64,000 bases of DNA, taken from assembly GCF_000214215.1 (NCBI RefSeq), contig NC_015559.1:1054001-1118000 (forward strand), read 5' to 3'. Numbering within the stretch: the first letter of the stretch is position 1; every line of letters begins with the position of its first letter. The notes beneath the pieces were generated by a model. It was not told the DNA's origin. It made no database searches and worked only from the letters and a program-made list of their open reading frames with translations. Shown here piece by piece: positions 32,029 to 41,159 of this stretch. A program made the position numbers and the translations under genes. This DNA is from Marinomonas posidonica IVIA-Po-181 (GTDB taxonomy: Bacteria; Pseudomonadota; Gammaproteobacteria; Pseudomonadales; Marinomonadaceae).

Positions 32029-33204
32029 TTACTTTAGGAGGTTCTTGGCTTTTTTAATGAAAGATAGGCTGATTAAAAAAGCCAATAAAGTTGCTGATGA
32101 CAAGATTAACCAGTAGGGCAAGAGAGCGTGTTCTGGACCTATTTGCGGCTGTATTTCAATATGGAATTGAGCAGCAAGAAAGTTAACCAAGTAACCGCAC
32201 ATTAGTGCGCCACCAATCACGCCAATTAAATACCCGAGTAATGTCTTTTTACCCATTTCTTTGCCGATTACGCCCAATGTGGCAATGTTGGTTGCTGGTC
32301 CCGCCATCATAAACACCAAAACGGCACCTGGTGATACACCGGCTAAAAGCAGTCCTGCGGCAATGGGTGTGGAAGCTGTTGCGCAAATGTACATAGGAAT
32401 AGAAATGATGACCATGATGAGCATCGCGAGAATGCCGTCTCCCCATTGGGCTAAAAAGCCACTGGGTAAATAAGCTTGTACTAATGCGGCAAAACCGATG
32501 CCGATTATTAACCACATACTGATGTCATCCACCAAGTTAGTGGCTGAAAAGCGTAATCCTTTTTGTATTTTTTGGGCCGCGTTGTTCATACGGTTGGTTT
32601 TTTGGGTGCTGCAGGAGGAATTAGGTGCGACGTTGTTTTGTTGTTTCTTGTTGATTGAACAACAAGAGTTTGAGGTGTTTTTGTCGTTGGACGAATTTGC
32701 CGCCGTGTTGTGAGCGGATTTTGGCATTATTGAGTGAGATGAGGCACAACAGGATGGTGTATTGTCTGTTAGCTTGTCGTCAACGGAATAAGAGGATTTG
32801 CTTTGCTTATCTAATGAGTTTACGAATAAGCCCGCAAGAATGGCGCTAAAAATGGCTGCAATTGGTCGAACAATGGCCATGAAAGGTCCAAGCATAACGT
32901 AGGATACGGAGATAGAATCGACGCCTGTTTCCGGTGTTGAAACGAGAAAAGAGCTGGTGGCGGCTTTTGAGGCTCCAGCTCGGCGTAAACCCATGGCCGC
33001 TGGAATCACACCACATGAACAGAGAGGCAAGGGAGCGCCGATGAAGGCGGCTTTTACTGTGGTTTTGATGTCATGACCACCCAGCTGTTGGTTCATCCAA
33101 TTTATTGGAATACAGGTTTTCATTATGCCAGCCAAAGCAAGGCCAAAAATGAACCATGGAGCGGATTCTAAAAACAATTGATAAAAGTGAGATAAAAACA
33201 ACAT
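32029..33204 (-). CDS. SO_0444-type Cu/Zn efflux permease (DUF318/UPF0718 family)
   Basis: A 391-residue inner-membrane permease with two bundles of helices. They are separated by a cysteine-rich hydrophilic loop (about 140-210) containing PSCCASSHS, NSCCSINKK and NSSCSTQK. The core motifs GAPLPLCSCGVIPAAMGLRRAGASKAA (split across a helix) and ATASTPIAAGLLLAGVSPGA are those of the ArsP-like/DUF318 permeases. The start at 33204 lies just after the merR stop (TGACATG), with AAGGAG about 10 nt upstream. An upstream ATG would overlap merR. With the ZntR-like neighbour, heavy-metal export is likely. Confidence 0.88.
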   Translation of the reverse strand: MLFLSHFYQLFLESAPWFIFGLALAGIMKTCIPINWMNQQLGGHDIKTTVKAAFIGAPLPLCSCGVIPAAMGLRRAGASKAATSSFLVSTPETGVDSISVSYVMLGPFMAIVRPIAAIFSAILAGLFVNSLDKQSKSSYSVDDKLTDNTPSCCASSHSIMPKSAHNTAANSSNDKNTSNSCCSINKKQQNNVAPNSSCSTQKTNRMNNAAQKIQKGLRFSATNLVDDISMWLIIGIGFAALVQAYLPSGFLAQWGDGILAMLIMVIISIPMYICATASTPIAAGLLLAGVSPGAVLVFMMAGPATNIATLGVIGKEMGKKTLLGYLIGVIGGALMCGYLVNFLAAQFHIEIQPQIGPEHALLPYWLILSSATLLAFLISLSFIKKAKNLLK

Positions 33205-33205
33205 G

Positions 33206-33652
33206 TCATTGATCTCCTTGATGAACGGAAGATTCATATTGGACTTCGTTTGTGTCTTGTTCTAATGCTTCTAGAATGGTGCAATGAACGGCACTTTCAT
33301 GGCCACCACAGCAGGCATCGGAGAGTTTTTTTAACGAGCTCTGAAAGCATTTTAATTCGGCTATTTTAGCTTCGATTTCAGTCAATTTATCGTCTACCAG
33401 CTGCTTTACATCTGAGCAAGAATTGCTCTCTTTGTTGATTTCAATGGACAGCAATTCTTGGGTTTCAGCTAGGGTAAATCCCACTCCTTTGGCTCGTAAT
33501 ATGAAATGTAAAATGTCTTTGTCTTGTTCCGAATACAGTCGATAGCCTGAGTCTGAGCGAGCTGATGCATGCAATAATCCGCTTTTTTCATAAAAGCGTA
33601 AGGTGTCTTTATTGATCTTGTAGAGTGTTGCGAGTTCGCCAATTCGATACAT
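33206..33652 (-). CDS. MerR-family zinc-type regulator (ZntR-like)
   Basis: A 148-residue metal sensor. The N-terminal winged helix (MYRIGELATLYKINKDTLRFYEK) is followed by a dimerisation helix and a metal-binding end with C79, C114, C115, H118 and C124 (SDACCGGHESAVHC). These positions closely match the Zn ligands of E. coli ZntR. It is cotranscribed with the permease, whose start lies 1 nt past its stop. The promoter at 33691-33722 has the dyad and long spacer that MerR proteins act on, so the operon is likely autoregulated. Zn, Cd or Pb are plausible inducers. Confidence 0.9.
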   Translation of the reverse strand: MYRIGELATLYKINKDTLRFYEKSGLLHASARSDSGYRLYSEQDKDILHFILRAKGVGFTLAETQELLSIEINKESNSCSDVKQLVDDKLTEIEAKIAELKCFQSSLKKLSDACCGGHESAVHCTILEALEQDTNEVQYESSVHQGDQ

Positions 33653-33883: not shown

Positions 33884-34798
33884 TCATCCAATGTTCTGTT
33901 CTTCAAATACCTCTTTGGCGATTTTTTGAAAAGACTGAAAGGCGAATTGCTCCTGTAAAGGACTGACACACCATAGGTACAAATCGCGGGAGACAGGTTG
34001 AATGTGTTCGAGCTTAAGTTCACAGATCGAAAATTCTTCTTTGATCACGGTAACAGGGAAGTGAGGTAGTGCGGCGAGATAGCGGCCAGACGCTAACATT
34101 TTCATGAGCATATAAGCATCATTGCGGAATACGGCTTTGGTTCTTGCGCCGTGGATGCCATAGGATGAGAGCATTTCAGTGGTTTGTTGTTCAAAGTAAG
34201 AAGCGATTCCTAAGCTTAACCAGTCAAGAGACATAAAGTCATCAATCTGAATATCACTTCTATTGGCCAGTGGGTGTTGTTGGCCGCAGAAGATGCCTAT
34301 TTTGTCTTCTTTTAGTCGTTCGCTATAAAGGCTGGTGGTGTTTCTGTCTGATGATTGCGGTGCAATGACGATATCAAATTGATCATCGAGTAACCCTTCC
34401 AATGCAACAGAGGGGTTTAAGCAGGTTATGGTCAAAGACACGTCTGGGTGTTCTTCAATCATGCGATCAATCACTTTGGGCAATACTCCCATTGCTAAAA
34501 GGGAGCCAGAAGCAATGCGCAAATTTTGTTTAATGCCTAATTTATATCGAGAAACTTGTTCCTGTGCAGCACCTAGACGACGGGTAATGGCTCGGCCTTC
34601 TCTAGCAAGGGATTCTCCCACTTGGGTACTGGTCACGCCAAAGCGGCTGCGAGTAAAAAGCTGGGTGCCGGCTTGCATCTCTAAGGTCGCCATTGCTCGG
34701 GTCAGAGTGGGCTGAGCAAGATTAAGGTATTCTGCCGCCGCGGTAATGGAGCCTTTATCAAGAATGGTGGCTAAGTATATAAGGTGTTTGGACTCCAT
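33884..34798 (-). CDS. LysR-family regulator linked to sulP and the TRAP/sulfatase operon
   Basis: A 304-residue LysR protein. The N-terminal helix-turn-helix (ITAAAEYLNLAQPTLTRAMATLE, about 17-40) is intact and a periplasmic-binding-fold effector domain follows. The gene begins 19 bp after sulP on the same strand, so the two form an operon divergent from the TAXI receptor gene. The inverted repeat at 36696-36734 between the divergent units is its likely target. The effector is probably the organosulfate, its desulfated product or sulfate; this is inference. Confidence 0.9.
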   Translation of the reverse strand: MESKHLIYLATILDKGSITAAAEYLNLAQPTLTRAMATLEMQAGTQLFTRSRFGVTSTQVGESLAREGRAITRRLGAAQEQVSRYKLGIKQNLRIASGSLLAMGVLPKVIDRMIEEHPDVSLTITCLNPSVALEGLLDDQFDIVIAPQSSDRNTTSLYSERLKEDKIGIFCGQQHPLANRSDIQIDDFMSLDWLSLGIASYFEQQTTEMLSSYGIHGARTKAVFRNDAYMLMKMLASGRYLAALPHFPVTVIKEEFSICELKLEHIQPVSRDLYLWCVSPLQEQFAFQSFQKIAKEVFEEQNIG

Positions 34799-34817: not shown

Positions 34818-36584
34818 TCAATTGTTTATCTTATTGTGTTTATTATTTGGAAATTGGCGACACTCGTTGAATATTCTCGATTCGCAAACGGCGCATTTTT
34901 GTTTGTCTATCTTATCCAGCATCATGCTGATGGCTTGGTTTGAATTATCGAATATATGATGCTTTAACAGGTTCTGAAAGGTTGGCATCGAGTCAATTTC
35001 ATCGGATACCGTACCTTTTAAGGAACACATAAGTAAATCCCCGCCGAGTTTATTGATGCGCTCTATTTCTGATTCCAGCAAAAGAACGCCTGAGGCGTCC
35101 ATGAAATTAATGCCTTTAGCAACCAATATGAGGTTGCTACGACCCAGCTGCGTGCGTTTAGACATTTCTTTTTGCACGTAATCGACAGAACCAAAATATA
35201 ACGAACCATCAATTCGAATCATTTGAAATTGTGGGCATGTGTTTAAGTCATATCGATCGATGTTACGAATCATTCGATGTTTTGTGGTTTGAAGAGGCGC
35301 CACTTCAATGAGGCGTGGGCGAGATGTTCGACGCAGATAAAAGCCGATGGATAAAATAATACCTAGGTAAATTGCGTATTCTAACGGGATAAACAGAGTC
35401 GATAAAAACGTCCCTATTAGAATGCAGGCTTCAGCAAGATTCAGTTTTAAGGTGTCGATAATGTGTTTGCTGTCGATTAAATTCCAAGCGATCAGCAGAA
35501 CGCTCCCGGCCATCGCTGGCAAGGGTAAGTAGGCTGTACTGGAAGGGATAAAGCAAATAACCAATGCAACGATAACAGCGGCAAACACAGCGGCCAAAGG
35601 GCTTGCTGCTCCTGCATCATAATTAGCCCCTGAGCGAGTGAAGGAGCCCGAACTGGTGTAACAAGAAAATACCCCGCCGATCATATTTGACATGCCTTGG
35701 CCAATGAACTCTTGGTTGCCATCAATGACTTGCTTTGAACGAATCGAAATTGCCCGAGCAATCGAGACCGCTTCAATCAGGCCAAGTAAGGCCACGGCAA
35801 AAGCCCCTGAAAACAGAGATTGTATGGTGGCCAGTGACAGGTCTGGAATCGATACGGGGGGCAAACTGCCCGACATGCTCTCCACCATAGCCACATTATG
35901 ATGCTGTGCGTTTAACAGAAGGCACAGCAGGCTTCCTGCTAGCATTCCAAGTAATAAATAAGGGAGTTTACGATTAATGGTTTTAATCAGTATAGAGGAG
36001 ATAAAAGTCGTCGTGCCGATGGCGAGAGCGTAGAGATTGGTGTCGCTCAGGGTGTGGAGCAAGGCGCTTATTTCCTCAATAAAATTCAAGTCTGCTGGCA
36101 GCGACACGCCTAACAAGTGTTTGATTTGGCTGGTGGCGATGAGTATGGCCGCGCCCGTCGTAAAGCCAATGATGACAGTATGAGAAATAAAATTAACCAA
36201 AGCTCCTAGTCTTAAGGTGCCGAGTATGAATTGAATCACTCCCACCAAAAAACTCAGAGTGACCACTATGGTTAATTGTTCAGTCAGATTACTGTATGAC
36301 ATTTGATTGACAACTGAGGCCACAACGATGGAAAGAGCAGCGGTTGGGCCGGAAATCATATGGAAAGAGCTACCAAATAATGAGGCAACAGCGGCAGAAA
36401 CTATGGCGGTATAGAGACCAAATTCCGGAGGCAGTCCTGCAATATAGGCATAAGCCACACCTTGCGGAAGTACCAAGACTGCGCCCGTTATACCTGCCAT
36501 GATGTCGTTTTTTAGGTCTGAAGCGGTGAGCTTTCGGCCCCAAGAAACAAAGGGGAATAAGGCGAGACATAGGGCTTTTAGCAT
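34818..36584 (-). CDS. SulP-family anion transporter with STAS domain
   Basis: The 588-residue inner-membrane protein has 10-14 helices typical of SulP. They include VLPQGVAYAYIAGLPPEFGLYTAI near residue 38 (shown in part), FSCYTSSGSFTRSGANYDAG (the conserved SGSFSRS-like segment), and a C-terminal STAS domain (GINFMDASGVLLLESEIERI). SulP proteins carry sulfate, bicarbonate or organic anions. Here the divergent neighbours import and desulfate an organosulfate, so sulfate or substrate-anion transport fits. The final cysteine-rich tail (KCAVCESRIFNECRQF) is unusual for the family. Confidence 0.9.
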   Translation of the reverse strand: MLKALCLALFPFVSWGRKLTASDLKNDIMAGITGAVLVLPQGVAYAYIAGLPPEFGLYTAIVSAAVASLFGSSFHMISGPTAALSIVVASVVNQMSYSNLTEQLTIVVTLSFLVGVIQFILGTLRLGALVNFISHTVIIGFTTGAAILIATSQIKHLLGVSLPADLNFIEEISALLHTLSDTNLYALAIGTTTFISSILIKTINRKLPYLLLGMLAGSLLCLLLNAQHHNVAMVESMSGSLPPVSIPDLSLATIQSLFSGAFAVALLGLIEAVSIARAISIRSKQVIDGNQEFIGQGMSNMIGGVFSCYTSSGSFTRSGANYDAGAASPLAAVFAAVIVALVICFIPSSTAYLPLPAMAGSVLLIAWNLIDSKHIIDTLKLNLAEACILIGTFLSTLFIPLEYAIYLGIILSIGFYLRRTSRPRLIEVAPLQTTKHRMIRNIDRYDLNTCPQFQMIRIDGSLYFGSVDYVQKEMSKRTQLGRSNLILVAKGINFMDASGVLLLESEIERINKLGGDLLMCSLKGTVSDEIDSMPTFQNLLKHHIFDNSNQAISMMLDKIDKQKCAVCESRIFNECRQFPNNKHNKINN

Positions 36585-36695
36585 GTACTTTCCAATTGAT
36601 AGACGAAATGGAGTGAAAAAGACTGTGTAAGCATTCTGAAGATACTAAACAACCACATCGTATTCGTAAAATGATAAAAGAAGGCTCTTAATCGA

Positions 36696-36734
36696 CAAAA
36701 ATGAATACATAAAATCTTTTGGTATTCATTTTTG
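36696..36734. promoter_or_regulatory. Large inverted-repeat operator between sulP and the TAXI gene
   Basis: CAAAAATGAATAC and GTATTCATTTTTG are perfect 13-bp inverted arms around a 13-bp AT-rich spacer. The position between divergent units and the T...A dyad geometry suit a LysR-type regulator. Confidence 0.7.
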
Positions 36735-36749
36735 ATTGATTAGTGTCTT

Positions 36750-36761
36750 AAATAATTATTT
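36750..36761. promoter_or_regulatory. AT palindrome near the TAXI gene promoter
   Basis: AAATAATTATTT is a perfect 12-bp palindrome 16 bp right of the larger operator. It may overlap the plus-strand promoter or be a second binding half, though its AT content makes chance more likely. Confidence 0.35.
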
Positions 36762-36832
36762 TACGGATATGATCTGTCGCGTTAGATTGGAACTACCGAA
36801 TAAACAATAATAAGCAAGCGGGAGAACACAAA

Positions 36833-37831
36833 ATGCAGAATGTGAAGAGGTTGCTGCGCCAAAGTCTCAGTACTTTTGGCGTAGTATGTGCGACATCACT
36901 GCTGACGAGCAATGTACTGGCAGCAAAAATAGGCATGGAGTCAGCAACGCCAAACAGTATTTTAGGTATGTTGCCACAAGCGATGGCCCCTTACTGGTCT
37001 AAGCAAGGCGTGGATGTGCAATTGTCTCTTAATCAAACCCTCACTAAATCATTGCTGAAAATCGCAAAGGGCAGTTTGGATTCTGCGGTAATTCCTGGCT
37101 TGGCCTTTTCGGCCTTACAAAATGGCCGAGGCCCATATGCCAAAATGGCTGATAAAGCCAAAGACATGTCTAAAAATGTACGTGGATTATTTACCATTCC
37201 GGGCAGTTACTACCATGCTATTACTCGAGCGGACTCTGGCATTCAGTCATGGCCCGACGCGAAAGGGAAACGGGTTTTTATTGGTCCACCTGCTGGAGCC
37301 GCCAATACTCAAATCAGCTCTTTAGCCGCGGCAGGCGGATTGGCCATTGGTGAATATAAGCCAATTAAAGCGCCTTGGGGGGCGGCTGTACAAAGTTTTC
37401 AAGATGGTCAATTTGATGTCTTTGTGGGTACCTTTTCCCTTGGCTCTCAATCGGTTGCGGAATTAAGTTTAACGAATGAAATTCGAATCTTAGGCATTCC
37501 AGGTGAAAAAATGATGCCGCCGGAAGGTCTAGGCATGCAACCTGCGGAAATCCCCGCCAATACTTACCCAGGTCAAGTAAATGAGGATTCTGCGCTGACA
37601 TGGCAGACCATCATGATGATGGCGGTTAATAAGGACATGTCTGACGATATTGCTTATACATTGACCAAAGAGTTTGTGGATAATCGCATGGCTTTAGCCG
37701 AATCGAACGCCTTGTTTAACGATTTACTGACAACGGATTATTTTGTTGGTGTTAATGCGCCATTGCATCCAGGCGCCGTGCGTTATTACAAGGAAGAAGG
37801 CATTCCCATTCCAGAAGCCTTATTACCCTAA
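36833..37831 (+). CDS. TRAP transporter TAXI-type substrate-binding protein
   Basis: A 332-residue periplasmic receptor. The signal peptide (about 1-30) ends LTSNVLA|AKIG. The TAXI-family pattern is seen in the N-terminal domain (GSLDSAVIPGLAFSALQNG), VFIGPPAGAANTQIS and the C-terminal PLHPGAVRYYKEEGIPIPE. It captures a solute for the fused permease encoded 71 bp downstream. GGGAG precedes the ATG. Few TAXI receptors have known ligands; the cytoplasmic sulfatase in the same operon points to a sulfate ester here. Confidence 0.93.
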   Translation: MQNVKRLLRQSLSTFGVVCATSLLTSNVLAAKIGMESATPNSILGMLPQAMAPYWSKQGVDVQLSLNQTLTKSLLKIAKGSLDSAVIPGLAFSALQNGRGPYAKMADKAKDMSKNVRGLFTIPGSYYHAITRADSGIQSWPDAKGKRVFIGPPAGAANTQISSLAAAGGLAIGEYKPIKAPWGAAVQSFQDGQFDVFVGTFSLGSQSVAELSLTNEIRILGIPGEKMMPPEGLGMQPAEIPANTYPGQVNEDSALTWQTIMMMAVNKDMSDDIAYTLTKEFVDNRMALAESNALFNDLLTTDYFVGVNAPLHPGAVRYYKEEGIPIPEALLP

Positions 37832-37902
37832 CCTTTCTTAATAACCCTATTCTCCAATGTGGATAATTTAAGCGAGGGATGACCTCGCTTAAAGGAGTGC
37901 GT

Positions 37903-39846
37903 ATGTTTTCCTCGTCTCGAGTGATATCGAGTCTGCTTTCATGGATGCTGGCAGCTTTTAGTTTGACCATTGCTTTTTATGGCTTAGCGAATGTGATGCC
38001 TGCGATAGGCGATTTTCGTCTTGGCCCTTTTCCATTGGTCGAATTTAGAGCCTCTTTCTTTGCTTTATGTTTGACCACCATTGCGCTGGGTATGGTTCAG
38101 CAATACATCAAAGGCAAAACACACGGTCTGCATGCCCTTATTAGCTTGGCTTTAATGATGGTGATGCTGTATTGCTGCTGGTCTTTTTATCAAGTGAGCA
38201 GCGAATTGGACGACGGCATGTTTTTGTTTGGTGCCAATGAAATGTGGATTGCGGTATTGGCGGCATCTGGGGCCTTGTATTTTTGTTGGCGAGTTTGGGG
38301 AATTCCTGTTGCCCTGTTAGGCGTAGTCGGCATTGTTTATATGGCGACAGGAGAATATTGGCCTGAACCGCTACAAACCGTTAGACATGATGTTCATGAG
38401 ACCTTAGCGCAAAATTTATTGTATAGCCTTGATACTGGAATTTTGGGCAGTACCTTTGCGATTGTGATTACAACGGTTTTTCCCTTCATTATTTTGGGCG
38501 CCATGTTAGAAGGCATTGGTGCTGGCGACTCCATGATTCGAATCGCCTTTCATTGGATGAGACGAACGGCCGGTGGTCCAGCGCATGCGGCGGTGTTGTC
38601 CTCTGGGCTATTTGGCACCGTATCAGGCAGTGCCGTGGGCAACGTGGTTGGCACAGGTGTGATCACCATTCCGATGATTAAACGTCGTGGGTTTTCAGCC
38701 AATTTTGCGGGTGCTGTAGAAGCTTCAGCCTCCACAGGAGGGCAGATCATGCCGCCTATTATGGGCGCGGCTGCCTTGGTTATGGCGGATTTTGTGGGCG
38801 TGAATTACATGACGGTGATTGTCGCGGTATTGGTGCCTTCGATTGCCTATTACGCCAGTTTGTTTGCCATGATTGTATTTGAATCTCGTCGTTTAGGCAT
38901 ACAAGCCAGTGAGACGGTGGAAGGCGTTGATGTGCCAGTGAAACAAGATTATTTGAATTTAATGCTGATCTTTGTCCCGTTAGCCATCATTGTCTGCTTG
39001 CTGTTATATGGATTGTCGCCTTCTGGGGCTTCTATTACGGCCTTGGCGGCTTTGTTTCCATTGAGTCTTATTAACCCAGAAATACGCGCGAAACCGATAA
39101 AACTCTTGCAGAGTTTGCAAGTTGGCGGACGTACTTTTGCTGGCTTGTTGATGGCCATCGCGGCCGTGAGCATTGTTATTTCGGCATTATCGGCCACGGG
39201 CGTACCAGTCAAATTCAGCGTTTTATTGTCCAGTATCGTTTCGGATTCCCTATTGATTTCCTTATTACTCGCGGCATTTTGTTGCATCGTATTGGGGATG
39301 GGAATGCCGACTTTGCCTGCGTATGTCACCGTGGCGACCATAGCGATTCCCGCTATGGAACAACTTGGTTTGGCGCCATTGACGGCTCATATGTTTGTGT
39401 TCTTTATTGCGGTTGGGTCGGCCATTACACCGCCGGTGGCGATCGCTGCCTTCGCGGCGGCCAGTATCTCTGGCGGTGGTCCGATAGGTACGTCTGTACA
39501 AGCATCGAAAGTCGGCATCATGATTTTTGTGATTCCGTTCACCTTTGCCTTTAACCCTTTGTTATTAAGCGTTGCTCAGTCTGGTGTGCCATTTGAACTG
39601 GTGTCCTGGCTTTGGTTAGTGATCAAGTTGGTTGTGGGGATTTTGTTGTTGGCAACGGCTTTGAGTGGTTTTCACGCACATAAACTGTCTTGGCTTGAGA
39701 TTGTTGGCCGTTTGATGGCCGCCGTGATGTTATTTGCTCCTGGTGTGATTTGGGACCAAATAGGCGCGACTTTCGCCTTACTACTGTGGATATGGCATCT
39801 GCGTTGCGACATTAAGATCATTCAGCGTTTGAAAGGAGTAGAGTAA
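37903..39846 (+). CDS. TRAP transporter fused permease (DctQ-DctM fusion)
   Basis: The 647-residue inner-membrane protein joins a 4-helix small subunit (about 1-160) to a 12-helix large subunit. The DctM-type motifs include GTVSGSAVGNVVGTGVITIP and GMGMPTLPAYVTVATIAIP. These 4TM/12TM fusions usually accompany TAXI receptors. The start at 37903 has AAGGAG just upstream; the ATG at 37879 lies before it and has none. The stop overlaps the sulfatase start (TAATG), so transporter and enzyme are translationally coupled. Confidence 0.94.
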   Translation: MFSSSRVISSLLSWMLAAFSLTIAFYGLANVMPAIGDFRLGPFPLVEFRASFFALCLTTIALGMVQQYIKGKTHGLHALISLALMMVMLYCCWSFYQVSSELDDGMFLFGANEMWIAVLAASGALYFCWRVWGIPVALLGVVGIVYMATGEYWPEPLQTVRHDVHETLAQNLLYSLDTGILGSTFAIVITTVFPFIILGAMLEGIGAGDSMIRIAFHWMRRTAGGPAHAAVLSSGLFGTVSGSAVGNVVGTGVITIPMIKRRGFSANFAGAVEASASTGGQIMPPIMGAAALVMADFVGVNYMTVIVAVLVPSIAYYASLFAMIVFESRRLGIQASETVEGVDVPVKQDYLNLMLIFVPLAIIVCLLLYGLSPSGASITALAALFPLSLINPEIRAKPIKLLQSLQVGGRTFAGLLMAIAAVSIVISALSATGVPVKFSVLLSSIVSDSLLISLLLAAFCCIVLGMGMPTLPAYVTVATIAIPAMEQLGLAPLTAHMFVFFIAVGSAITPPVAIAAFAAASISGGGPIGTSVQASKVGIMIFVIPFTFAFNPLLLSVAQSGVPFELVSWLWLVIKLVVGILLLATALSGFHAHKLSWLEIVGRLMAAVMLFAPGVIWDQIGATFALLLWIWHLRCDIKIIQRLKGVE

Positions 39847-41159
39847 TGACCAATATTATTTACATTGTGGCAGATGATTTAGGTTATGCCGATCTAGGTT
39901 GTTATGGTGGTCGAGAAGCTCAATTTGGCAAGGTATCGCCAAATATCGATAAGCTGGCTGATGAGGGAATGATGTTTGTTGATGGCTATGCAAACTCTCC
40001 TGTCTGTTCACCTACTCGATTTGCCTTAATGACGATGGCGTATCAATATCGTCTTCGTGGTGCACTGGAAGAACCCATTAATAGTAAAAGTATTGGCAGT
40101 GATACATTGGGCTTGCCTCCTCATATACCCACCTTGCCGGGTCAGTTAAAGAAGGCGGGGTATTACACCGGATTGATGGGGAAGTGGCATCTTGGTTATC
40201 CCCCTCATTTTGGTCCAAGGTCATCAGGCTATGATGAATTTTTTGGCATCATGGCGGGGGGCGTGGATTATTTCTCTCATAAAAGTGGTCATGGTGATCA
40301 TGATCTTTGGATCAATGAAGAGGAGCATAAGGAAATTGGCTATTTAACCGATTTGATTTCAGAACATTCTCTAGAGTTCATTCATCGTCGCGCAAAAGAG
40401 GCGCCCGAGCAGCCATTTTTTTTGAGCGTTCACTACACAGCGCCTCATTGGCCATGGGAAACCCGAGAGGATGAGCATTTATCTGGCAAGATGTCGACCT
40501 TGTTTCATCTTGAAGGCGGCAATATTCATACCTACCGAAAAATGATTCATCACATGGATGAAGGTATTGGTCGAATTATGGCGGCATTAGAAGAGCATGG
40601 TTTAACGGATGATACGTTAATAGTGTTTACCAGTGATAATGGTGGGGAGCGCTTTTCTGATAATTGGCCCTTGGTTGGTGGGAAGATGGATTTGACTGAA
40701 GGGGGAATTCGAGTTCCTTGGATCGCTCGGTGGCCGAAGAAGATTGATGCTGGAAAGGTGAGCACACAGCATTGCATGACAATGGATTGGTCTCGTACTT
40801 TGCTGGAAGTCGGGGAAGGGCCGTTTGACCCTGATTACCCTGTCGATGGTGTTTCGTTAATGCCGGTACTGACGGGGAATGCAGAAACGTTTGAGCGTCC
40901 TTTGTATTGGCGTATGAAACACCGCAGCCAAAGAGCGTTACGTTTAGATGATTGGAAATACTTAAAAGTGGATGAGCACGAGTATTTGTTTAACGTCAAA
41001 AATGATGCCCGTGAGCGAGCGAATCTGGGTAAGCGTTACCCTGAAAAACTCGCAGAAATGAGACAGCAATGGCTGGATTGGAATGCAAGCATGCCTCCTA
41101 TTCCTGAAGATGCGGTTGTCAGCCTTGGTTACAGTGTTGCGGACATGCCGCAACGTTAA
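39846..41159 (+). CDS. Cytoplasmic sulfatase (arylsulfatase family S1)
   Basis: A 437-residue sulfatase with the formylglycine motif CSPTR at residues 54-58, metal ligands VADDLGYAD near residues 8-16, GKWHLG near 117, HYTAPHWPW near 200 and FTSDNGGE near 263. No signal peptide: the catalytic fold begins within four residues of the Met. Hydrolysis is therefore expected in the cytoplasm, after import by the coupled TRAP system. The CxPxR motif can be matured by a formylglycine-generating enzyme or an anSME; neither gene is in the window. The exact ester is unknown. Confidence 0.93.
   Translation: MTNIIYIVADDLGYADLGCYGGREAQFGKVSPNIDKLADEGMMFVDGYANSPVCSPTRFALMTMAYQYRLRGALEEPINSKSIGSDTLGLPPHIPTLPGQLKKAGYYTGLMGKWHLGYPPHFGPRSSGYDEFFGIMAGGVDYFSHKSGHGDHDLWINEEEHKEIGYLTDLISEHSLEFIHRRAKEAPEQPFFLSVHYTAPHWPWETREDEHLSGKMSTLFHLEGGNIHTYRKMIHHMDEGIGRIMAALEEHGLTDDTLIVFTSDNGGERFSDNWPLVGGKMDLTEGGIRVPWIARWPKKIDAGKVSTQHCMTMDWSRTLLEVGEGPFDPDYPVDGVSLMPVLTGNAETFERPLYWRMKHRSQRALRLDDWKYLKVDEHEYLFNVKNDARERANLGKRYPEKLAEMRQQWLDWNASMPPIPEDAVVSLGYSVADMPQR

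Follow-up and report, generated by a model that had tools for sequence, protein, structure and literature searches.

A leaderless sulfatase coupled to a TAXI-TRAP transporter in Marinomonas: a candidate module for uptake and cytoplasmic cleavage of organic sulfate esters

In the chromosome of Marinomonas posidonica IVIA-Po-181, a gene for a sulfatase without a recognisable leader directly follows genes for a TAXI-type receptor and a fused TRAP permease. This arrangement raises the question of which ester such an enzyme would meet in the cytoplasm, and how that ester gets there. We analysed a window of 64,000 nucleotides (contig NC_015559.1, positions 1,054,001 to 1,118,000) from this genome, which consists of one contig of 3.9 Mb and contains a single sulfatase. 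Five genes are concerned:

33884-34798, minus strand: LysR-type regulator (PF03466 and PF00126 above cut-off; ortholog at 12 of 12 Marinomonas loci)
34818-36584, minus strand: SulP anion transporter with STAS domain (PF00916, PF01740; at 7 of 12 Marinomonas loci)
36833-37831, plus strand: TAXI-type TRAP receptor, with a Sec-like leader recognised by eye (TIGR02122 above cut-off)
37879-39846, plus strand: fused TRAP permease (TIGR02123 above cut-off)
39846-41159, plus strand: leaderless S1-type sulfatase, CSPTR motif at residue 54 (PF00884)

Profiles and coordinates confirmed the gene list and layout of the preliminary description. The stop codon of the TRAP gene and the start codon of the sulfatase overlap by one base in the sequence TAATG, and 19 bp separate SulP from LysR, the latter lying just outside the range first assigned to the unit (34818-41159). 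Adjoining the unit, at 32029-33652 of the window, a gene for a ZntR-type MerR regulator overlaps an SO_0444-type Cu/Zn efflux gene.

Families, folds and location of the gene products

The sulfatase belongs to the S1 family (PF00884, 186 bits against a cut-off of 25 in the profile search). Ten positions, presumably catalytic or involved in metal and sulfate binding (D10, D11, C54, R58, K113, H115, H201, D264, N265 and K280), are the same in all 45 aligned relatives. P56 of the CxPxR motif is replaced by alanine in 5 of the 45, and residue 64 is glycine in 15 and methionine or alanine in 30. The predicted model (mean pLDDT 83) is closest to S1_19 carrageenan sulfatases (6psm, Z 42.9, 31% identity), and these carbohydrate sulfatases are the nearest solved enzymes by both sequence and fold. 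PehA-type hydrolases and Mn arylsulfatases were rejected as assignments, their profile scores being far under cut-off. Choline sulfatase was rejected as well (TIGR03417, 119 bits against an equivalog cut-off of 433), a score that also separates the enzyme from BetC, with which it shares the combination of a leaderless S1 sulfatase and transporter genes; near betC, the accessible text of PMC6189696 places a betaine-type receptor and a putative sulfate permease component.

The protein begins with MTNIIYIVADDLG, a start without a leader, which agrees with the earlier claim that it has no signal peptide; export, one of the findings that were to overturn the proposal, is not indicated by any signal that we found. 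Sec- or Tat-like leaders were likewise absent from the 17 TAXI-linked sulfatase rows (one remnant and one duplicated locus included) and from the 50 rows linked to Bug/TctC receptors, which are unrelated to TAXI. As the leader test is blind to Tat leaders, a separate Tat test was used, which misses the RR-bearing L129 and L131; for high-GC loci, the position of the start codon is not certain. Tat-like leaders were detected in L055, L124, L127, L128 and L132, which have identities of 49-54% and none of which is linked to an importer. Leader-bearing relatives from Oxalobacteraceae (Duganella, Rugamonas; L124, L127, L128 and L131) lie in a common four-gene order, c33, c21, c23, c34, in which the c23 protein resembles an arylsulfotransferase by eye. 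The match in Ramlibacter terrae (L123:9001-10298) falls in two overlapping frames, and this sulfatase may be frameshifted.

The receptor is a member of the TAXI family (TIGR02122, 131 bits against 84), and the nearest folds to its predicted model are six solved TAXI entries (Z 20.6-23.0). The permease matches the single fused type (TIGR02123, 455 bits against 321). The unit thus shares with known TAXI-TRAP systems both protein families and the receptor fold, and differs from them in the translationally coupled sulfatase and in sequence matches to solved receptors that span residues 112-332 only. Because of this limited span, and because the model has weak stretches around residues 1-41, 64-68 and 202-204, a residue-level comparison with glutamate-binding TAXI proteins is impossible. 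Few TAXI ligands are known, glutamate being the common one, as far as the accessible parts of PMC11574862 and PMC12344293 go; the former lists glutamate, 2-oxoglutarate and orthophthalate for TAXI-TRAP systems, the last of these an aromatic dianion. In openly licensed PMC text, no report was found that pairs a sulfatase of this kind with a TAXI or Bug importer; the alkyl-sulfate operon described in PMC3346939 is unrelated.

Both domains of the SulP protein score over cut-off (PF00916, 309 bits against 23; STAS PF01740, 52 against 22.6). The NCBIfam model TIGR00815 is narrowly missed (359 against 380), and the BicA and DauA models match weakly, far under cut-off.

Conservation and upstream region of the unit in Marinomonas

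The sulfatase is present in 12 of 48 Marinomonas genomes, one of the 12 as a remnant, and we compared the window with the 11 other loci. LysR was found at all 12, TRAP at 11, an adjacent TAXI gene at 10 (plus a fragment in G277) and SulP at 7, with TAXI and TRAP both intact beside the sulfatase in 10 of the 12 genomes. The co-occurrence search that the preliminary description had called for thus recovers the TAXI, TRAP and sulfatase order repeatedly within the genus, and the conservation on which it had staked its model is seen, with G262 and G246 as exceptions. In G262 the TAXI gene sits on a separate contig from the rest of the unit. TAXI orthologs (at least 58% identity) occur in every one of the 12 genomes that have the sulfatase, counting G277 with its remnants of both genes, as against 1 of 36 without it, namely G246 (Fisher p 1.9e-10, uncorrected for kinship). 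Because the order recurs in Marinomonas and the receptor follows the sulfatase so closely, the association exceeds chance. From the counts per locus we therefore take the core to be LysR and TAXI-TRAP-sulfatase, with SulP a frequent but optional addition; by this measure LysR is the constant partner of the unit.

Several loci are irregular. G246 (L136:8983-11119) keeps orthologs of TAXI and LysR but has neither TRAP nor sulfatase. Nearby are a putative cyclase and a Rieske oxygenase, and these neighbours of the orphan receptor may hint at its ligand. The G277 locus (L053:9153-11617) combines a full-length LysR match with mere fragments of TAXI and sulfatase interrupted by stops, and we read it as a decayed copy of the unit. 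In Marinobacterium xm-d-530 (L060:6000-7000) the TAXI gene is split over two frames, and in M. zhoushanense (L057:6033-7025) the TAXI match continues past a stop near its end; these broken frames could be assembly errors.

Between the divergent SulP and TAXI genes, three elements were noted:

36697-36733, no strand assigned: inverted repeat AAAAATGAA...TTCATTTTT, an exact dyad in the window and candidate LysR site
36722-36744, plus strand: 23-base conserved block about 110 bp before TAXI
36757-36770, plus strand: conserved TATTTTACGGATAT stretch in an alignment of 7 loci, at like spacing after the 23-base block

The alignment of 7 loci revealed a conserved block before TAXI. The 23-base block scores higher than any of 500 shuffles in 10 of the 16 upstream regions, a count that includes the window itself as the source of the block; it fails to do so in G266, both G262 regions, G246 and two Marinobacterium loci. 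Near both halves of the split G262 unit, it matches at 17 of 23 positions, equal at most to the best shuffles there, and is followed by an ATTTTAC stretch at the same spacing. The dyad is perfect or near-perfect in only some relatives, and an invariant LysR dyad was rejected on account of this partial conservation. The conserved upstream elements suggest shared control of the genes of the unit, which LysR probably exerts.

Partners of the sulfatase outside Marinomonas

We scanned named species genomes for the sulfatase and kept the best 80 loci, 79 of them from outside Marinomonas. Sixty of the 79 have at least 4 kb upstream and at least 3 kb downstream, the 19 with shorter flanks being left out, and neighbours were counted by tblastn in these 60 (all Marinomonas loci, L130 among them, left out). 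Within 500 bp of the sulfatase, a Bug/TctC receptor was found at 43 of the 60 loci, TRAP at 3 and either at 46, leaving 14 with no importer at that distance. Within 3 kb, MarR was found at 29, TAXI at 3 and SulP at 16, of which 12 within 500 bp; the 16 count in L060, where SulP is remote and on the opposite strand. Beyond 4 kb, Bug appears at 8 of the 60 loci and SulP, MarR, TAXI and TRAP at none. Burkholderiales are rich in Bug genes, and it is because of their number there that this comparison of near and distant neighbours matters. The 24 Bug proteins encoded directly before the sulfatase have a median identity of 32% and are no closer to one another than to other Bug proteins, for which reason a dedicated Bug family was rejected; instead, we take Bug receptors to have been recruited repeatedly, perhaps with differing ligands.

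Five of 20 plasmid records were looked at. A Bug gene immediately precedes the sulfatase on plasmids of Comamonas endophytica and Variovorax SRS16, and no importer adjoins it in the plasmid relative from Methylobacterium nodulans. On pNL2 of Novosphingobium aromaticivorans, a TonB receptor and aromatic genes surround a 44% identical sulfatase; the record PP1Y is without annotation.

The sulfatase tree unites 11 rows from Marinomonas with 3 from Marinobacterium in a single clade (support 100). This clade nests in a group of 20 (support 99) that also contains rows from Hydrogenophaga and Azonexus linked to Bug and SulP (L058, L059 and L061), and this group lies inside a larger, Bug-rich Burkholderiales part. 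The TAXI-linked L111 and L116 lie elsewhere, on a long branch of unsure placement. The tree was built by a quick method, has many open forks and leaves out L053, L118, L119, L123, L130, L009-L012 and L014.

A separate SulP tree, from which five wrong-frame rows and six copies were left out, places the sulfatase-linked SulPs in two lineages. Those of Marinomonas and Marinobacterium (n=9) cluster with unlinked paralogs, those of Burkholderiales (n=14; 26-29% identical to the SulP of the window) cluster with other paralogs, and a single clade of linked SulPs was rejected (p-AU 2e-46). Taken together, the two trees indicate that the sulfatase was retained while its importer and SulP changed.

We propose that SulP serves as a sulfate exporter or exchanger. 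It could instead be a bystander, or carry another anion such as bicarbonate or a dicarboxylate, and we give this reading a substantial chance, while holding it to be the less probable one. SulP proteins carry several anions, the weak BicA and DauA matches pointing in that direction at scores far below their cut-offs, and SulP is missing from 5 of the 12 Marinomonas loci. Against it stands the recurrence of two SulP lineages beside the same sulfatase, SulP lying within 500 bp at 12 of the 60 loci and beyond 4 kb at none. The same observations divide the earlier proposal that all five genes form one loop of import, cleavage and anion exchange: the tie between SulP and the sulfatase holds, and the obligatory loop does not, since LysR is present at every Marinomonas locus whereas SulP is not.

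Substrate, maturation and significance

Import of an ester followed by its cleavage in the cytoplasm, as first suggested for this locus, is well supported by genomic context: the enzyme lacks a leader, the TAXI-TRAP-sulfatase unit is conserved, and other importers lie beside the same enzyme elsewhere. The ligand, the direction of SulP transport, the regulation and the enzymatic activity are aspects that we infer.

Aromatic marker sets were found at 3 of the 98 sulfatase loci searched (L054, L116 and L120), two of which share related genes; none is from Marinomonas among the matches listed. The Hydrogenophaga MAG L120 has a meta-cleavage set and a Bug gene around the sulfatase, with an MhpA-type hydroxylase (412 bits against 390), an acetylating acetaldehyde dehydrogenase (467 against 282) and a 4-hydroxy-2-oxovalerate aldolase (592 against 286); an HsaD/BphD-like hydrolase, a BphC-like dioxygenase and a 2-keto-4-pentenoate hydratase-like protein remain under their equivalog cut-offs. 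In L054, genes for a VanA-type Rieske protein, a reductase, an SDR and an ALDH form a row with the sulfatase, accompanied by a second Rieske protein, a TauE protein and, by eye, DctP-TRAP genes. The order Rieske, reductase, SDR, ALDH resembles that which we take to be typical of the tsaMBCD toluenesulfonate genes; the Marinomonas loci differ in having no such genes, and none of the 15 plasmid rows listed carries a tsaM label. In L116, the sulfatase is preceded by a Rieske end, a reductase and an SDR and followed by TAXI and TRAP. L073 and L097 gave only a weak MhpA-like match. No aromatic marker gene lies beside the Marinomonas unit. A 4-hydroxybenzoate hydroxylase is encoded in all 12 Marinomonas genomes with the sulfatase and in 25 of the 36 without it (p 0.044, uncorrected for kinship).

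Because relatives of the sulfatase lie in aromatic-degradation operons, an aryl sulfate is our best guess at the substrate. The distribution of 4-hydroxybenzoate hydroxylase and the reported TAXI system for orthophthalate (PMC11574862) speak for the module as well. Some Marinomonas are plant-associated, and zosteric acid, a phenol sulfate of seagrasses, is a candidate only. The ligand of the TAXI receptor would be an organic sulfate ester, most probably the anion of a small aromatic (phenol) sulfate, which the fused permease would bring into the cell; the leaderless sulfatase would cut it into sulfate and a phenol, the phenol would be catabolised by genes elsewhere in the genome, such as 4-hydroxybenzoate hydroxylase, and SulP, where present, would export or exchange the freed sulfate. 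We consider this module, as a whole, somewhat more probable than not. Counting against it are the small number of aromatic loci, the likeness to carbohydrate sulfatases, the varied Bug receptors, the importerless loci (14 of 60 among the best 80), the gaps in SulP, G246 and the lack of a known maturase.

It is unlikely that the unit takes up a small sugar or sugar acid that carries a sulfate, or another non-aromatic sulfate. S1_19 and other carbohydrate sulfatases are its nearest solved structures, and sugar acids are often carried by TRAP systems; yet reading the open frames by eye we noticed no glycoside hydrolase beside the Marinomonas unit, and in L054, L116 and L120 aromatic rather than sugar genes surround the sulfatase.

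The Pseudomonas Ats system, with the ABC importer AtsRBC and the cytoplasmic arylsulfatase AtsA, imports and then cleaves esters for sulfur. The Marinomonas unit resembles it in the proposed import of an ester ahead of a leaderless S1 sulfatase, and AtsA, whose structure we take to be 1hdh, shares the fold (Z 36.7, 29% identity). The unit differs in having TAXI-TRAP (Bug in relatives) rather than an ABC importer, in the SulP gene often adjacent and in belonging to another sulfatase branch. It would work like an Ats-type import-and-cleave system with other transporters, and for want of the ABC importer we do not file it as a member. Similarly, the unit could scavenge sulfur, esters being imported under starvation while SulP takes up inorganic sulfate under shared control. 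Import and cleavage of the Ats kind serves sulfur supply, LysR-type regulators are common over sulfur genes, and, in a genus that is marine in part, 12 of 48 genomes have this optional unit. We nonetheless regard sulfur scavenging as improbable: sea water is rich in sulfate, so that little would be gained, relatives of the sulfatase are found in carbon-catabolic operons, and SulP and a TauE-type exporter near the sulfatase are better suited to removing a sulfur anion.

The maturation of the active-site cysteine poses a further question. The sole FGE-family match in the genome (L002, C1:2050929-2051597) is a fusion that by eye resembles a kinase and has an end, RGGSWFDIPRVGRSATRYR, without the cysteine pair that we take as the signature of the FGE active site; this genome thus has no recognisable FGE, and no anSME-family match was found in it. 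Among the genomes examined, similar FGE-like ends without active-site cysteines recur in the other Marinomonas and in two of Marinobacterium. Across 26 sulfatase genomes (30 loci fetched, several genomes being drafts, lower-scoring FGE-family matches left out), the cysteine-pair motif occurs in 4, anSME above cut-off in 4 others and neither in 18. A third maturation route is possible, as is catalysis by a plain cysteine, because an unmodified choline sulfatase turns over slowly according to the accessible text of PMC6189696; the same text cites Benjdia 2007 as leaving the maturation of E. coli sulfatases open. The preliminary description of the locus covered neither the pairing with Bug receptors nor the aromatic operons nor the lack of a known maturase.

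A bolder reading is that a cytoplasmic sulfatase lineage moved from Bug operons of Burkholderiales to marine gammaproteobacteria and there acquired a TAXI-TRAP system dedicated to a phenol sulfate and a separately recruited, sulfate-exporting SulP, its cysteine being matured by an enzyme that is neither FGE nor anSME. We hold this reading to be doubtful. A TAXI receptor for a sulfate ester, if true, would extend the range of the family and reveal how marine bacteria gain access to phenol sulfates. The genome of M. posidonica, with one sulfatase and neither known maturase, offers a simple background for studying the maturation of such enzymes, and the retention of the sulfatase while importer and SulP were replaced would point to a real need to rid the cytoplasm of sulfate.
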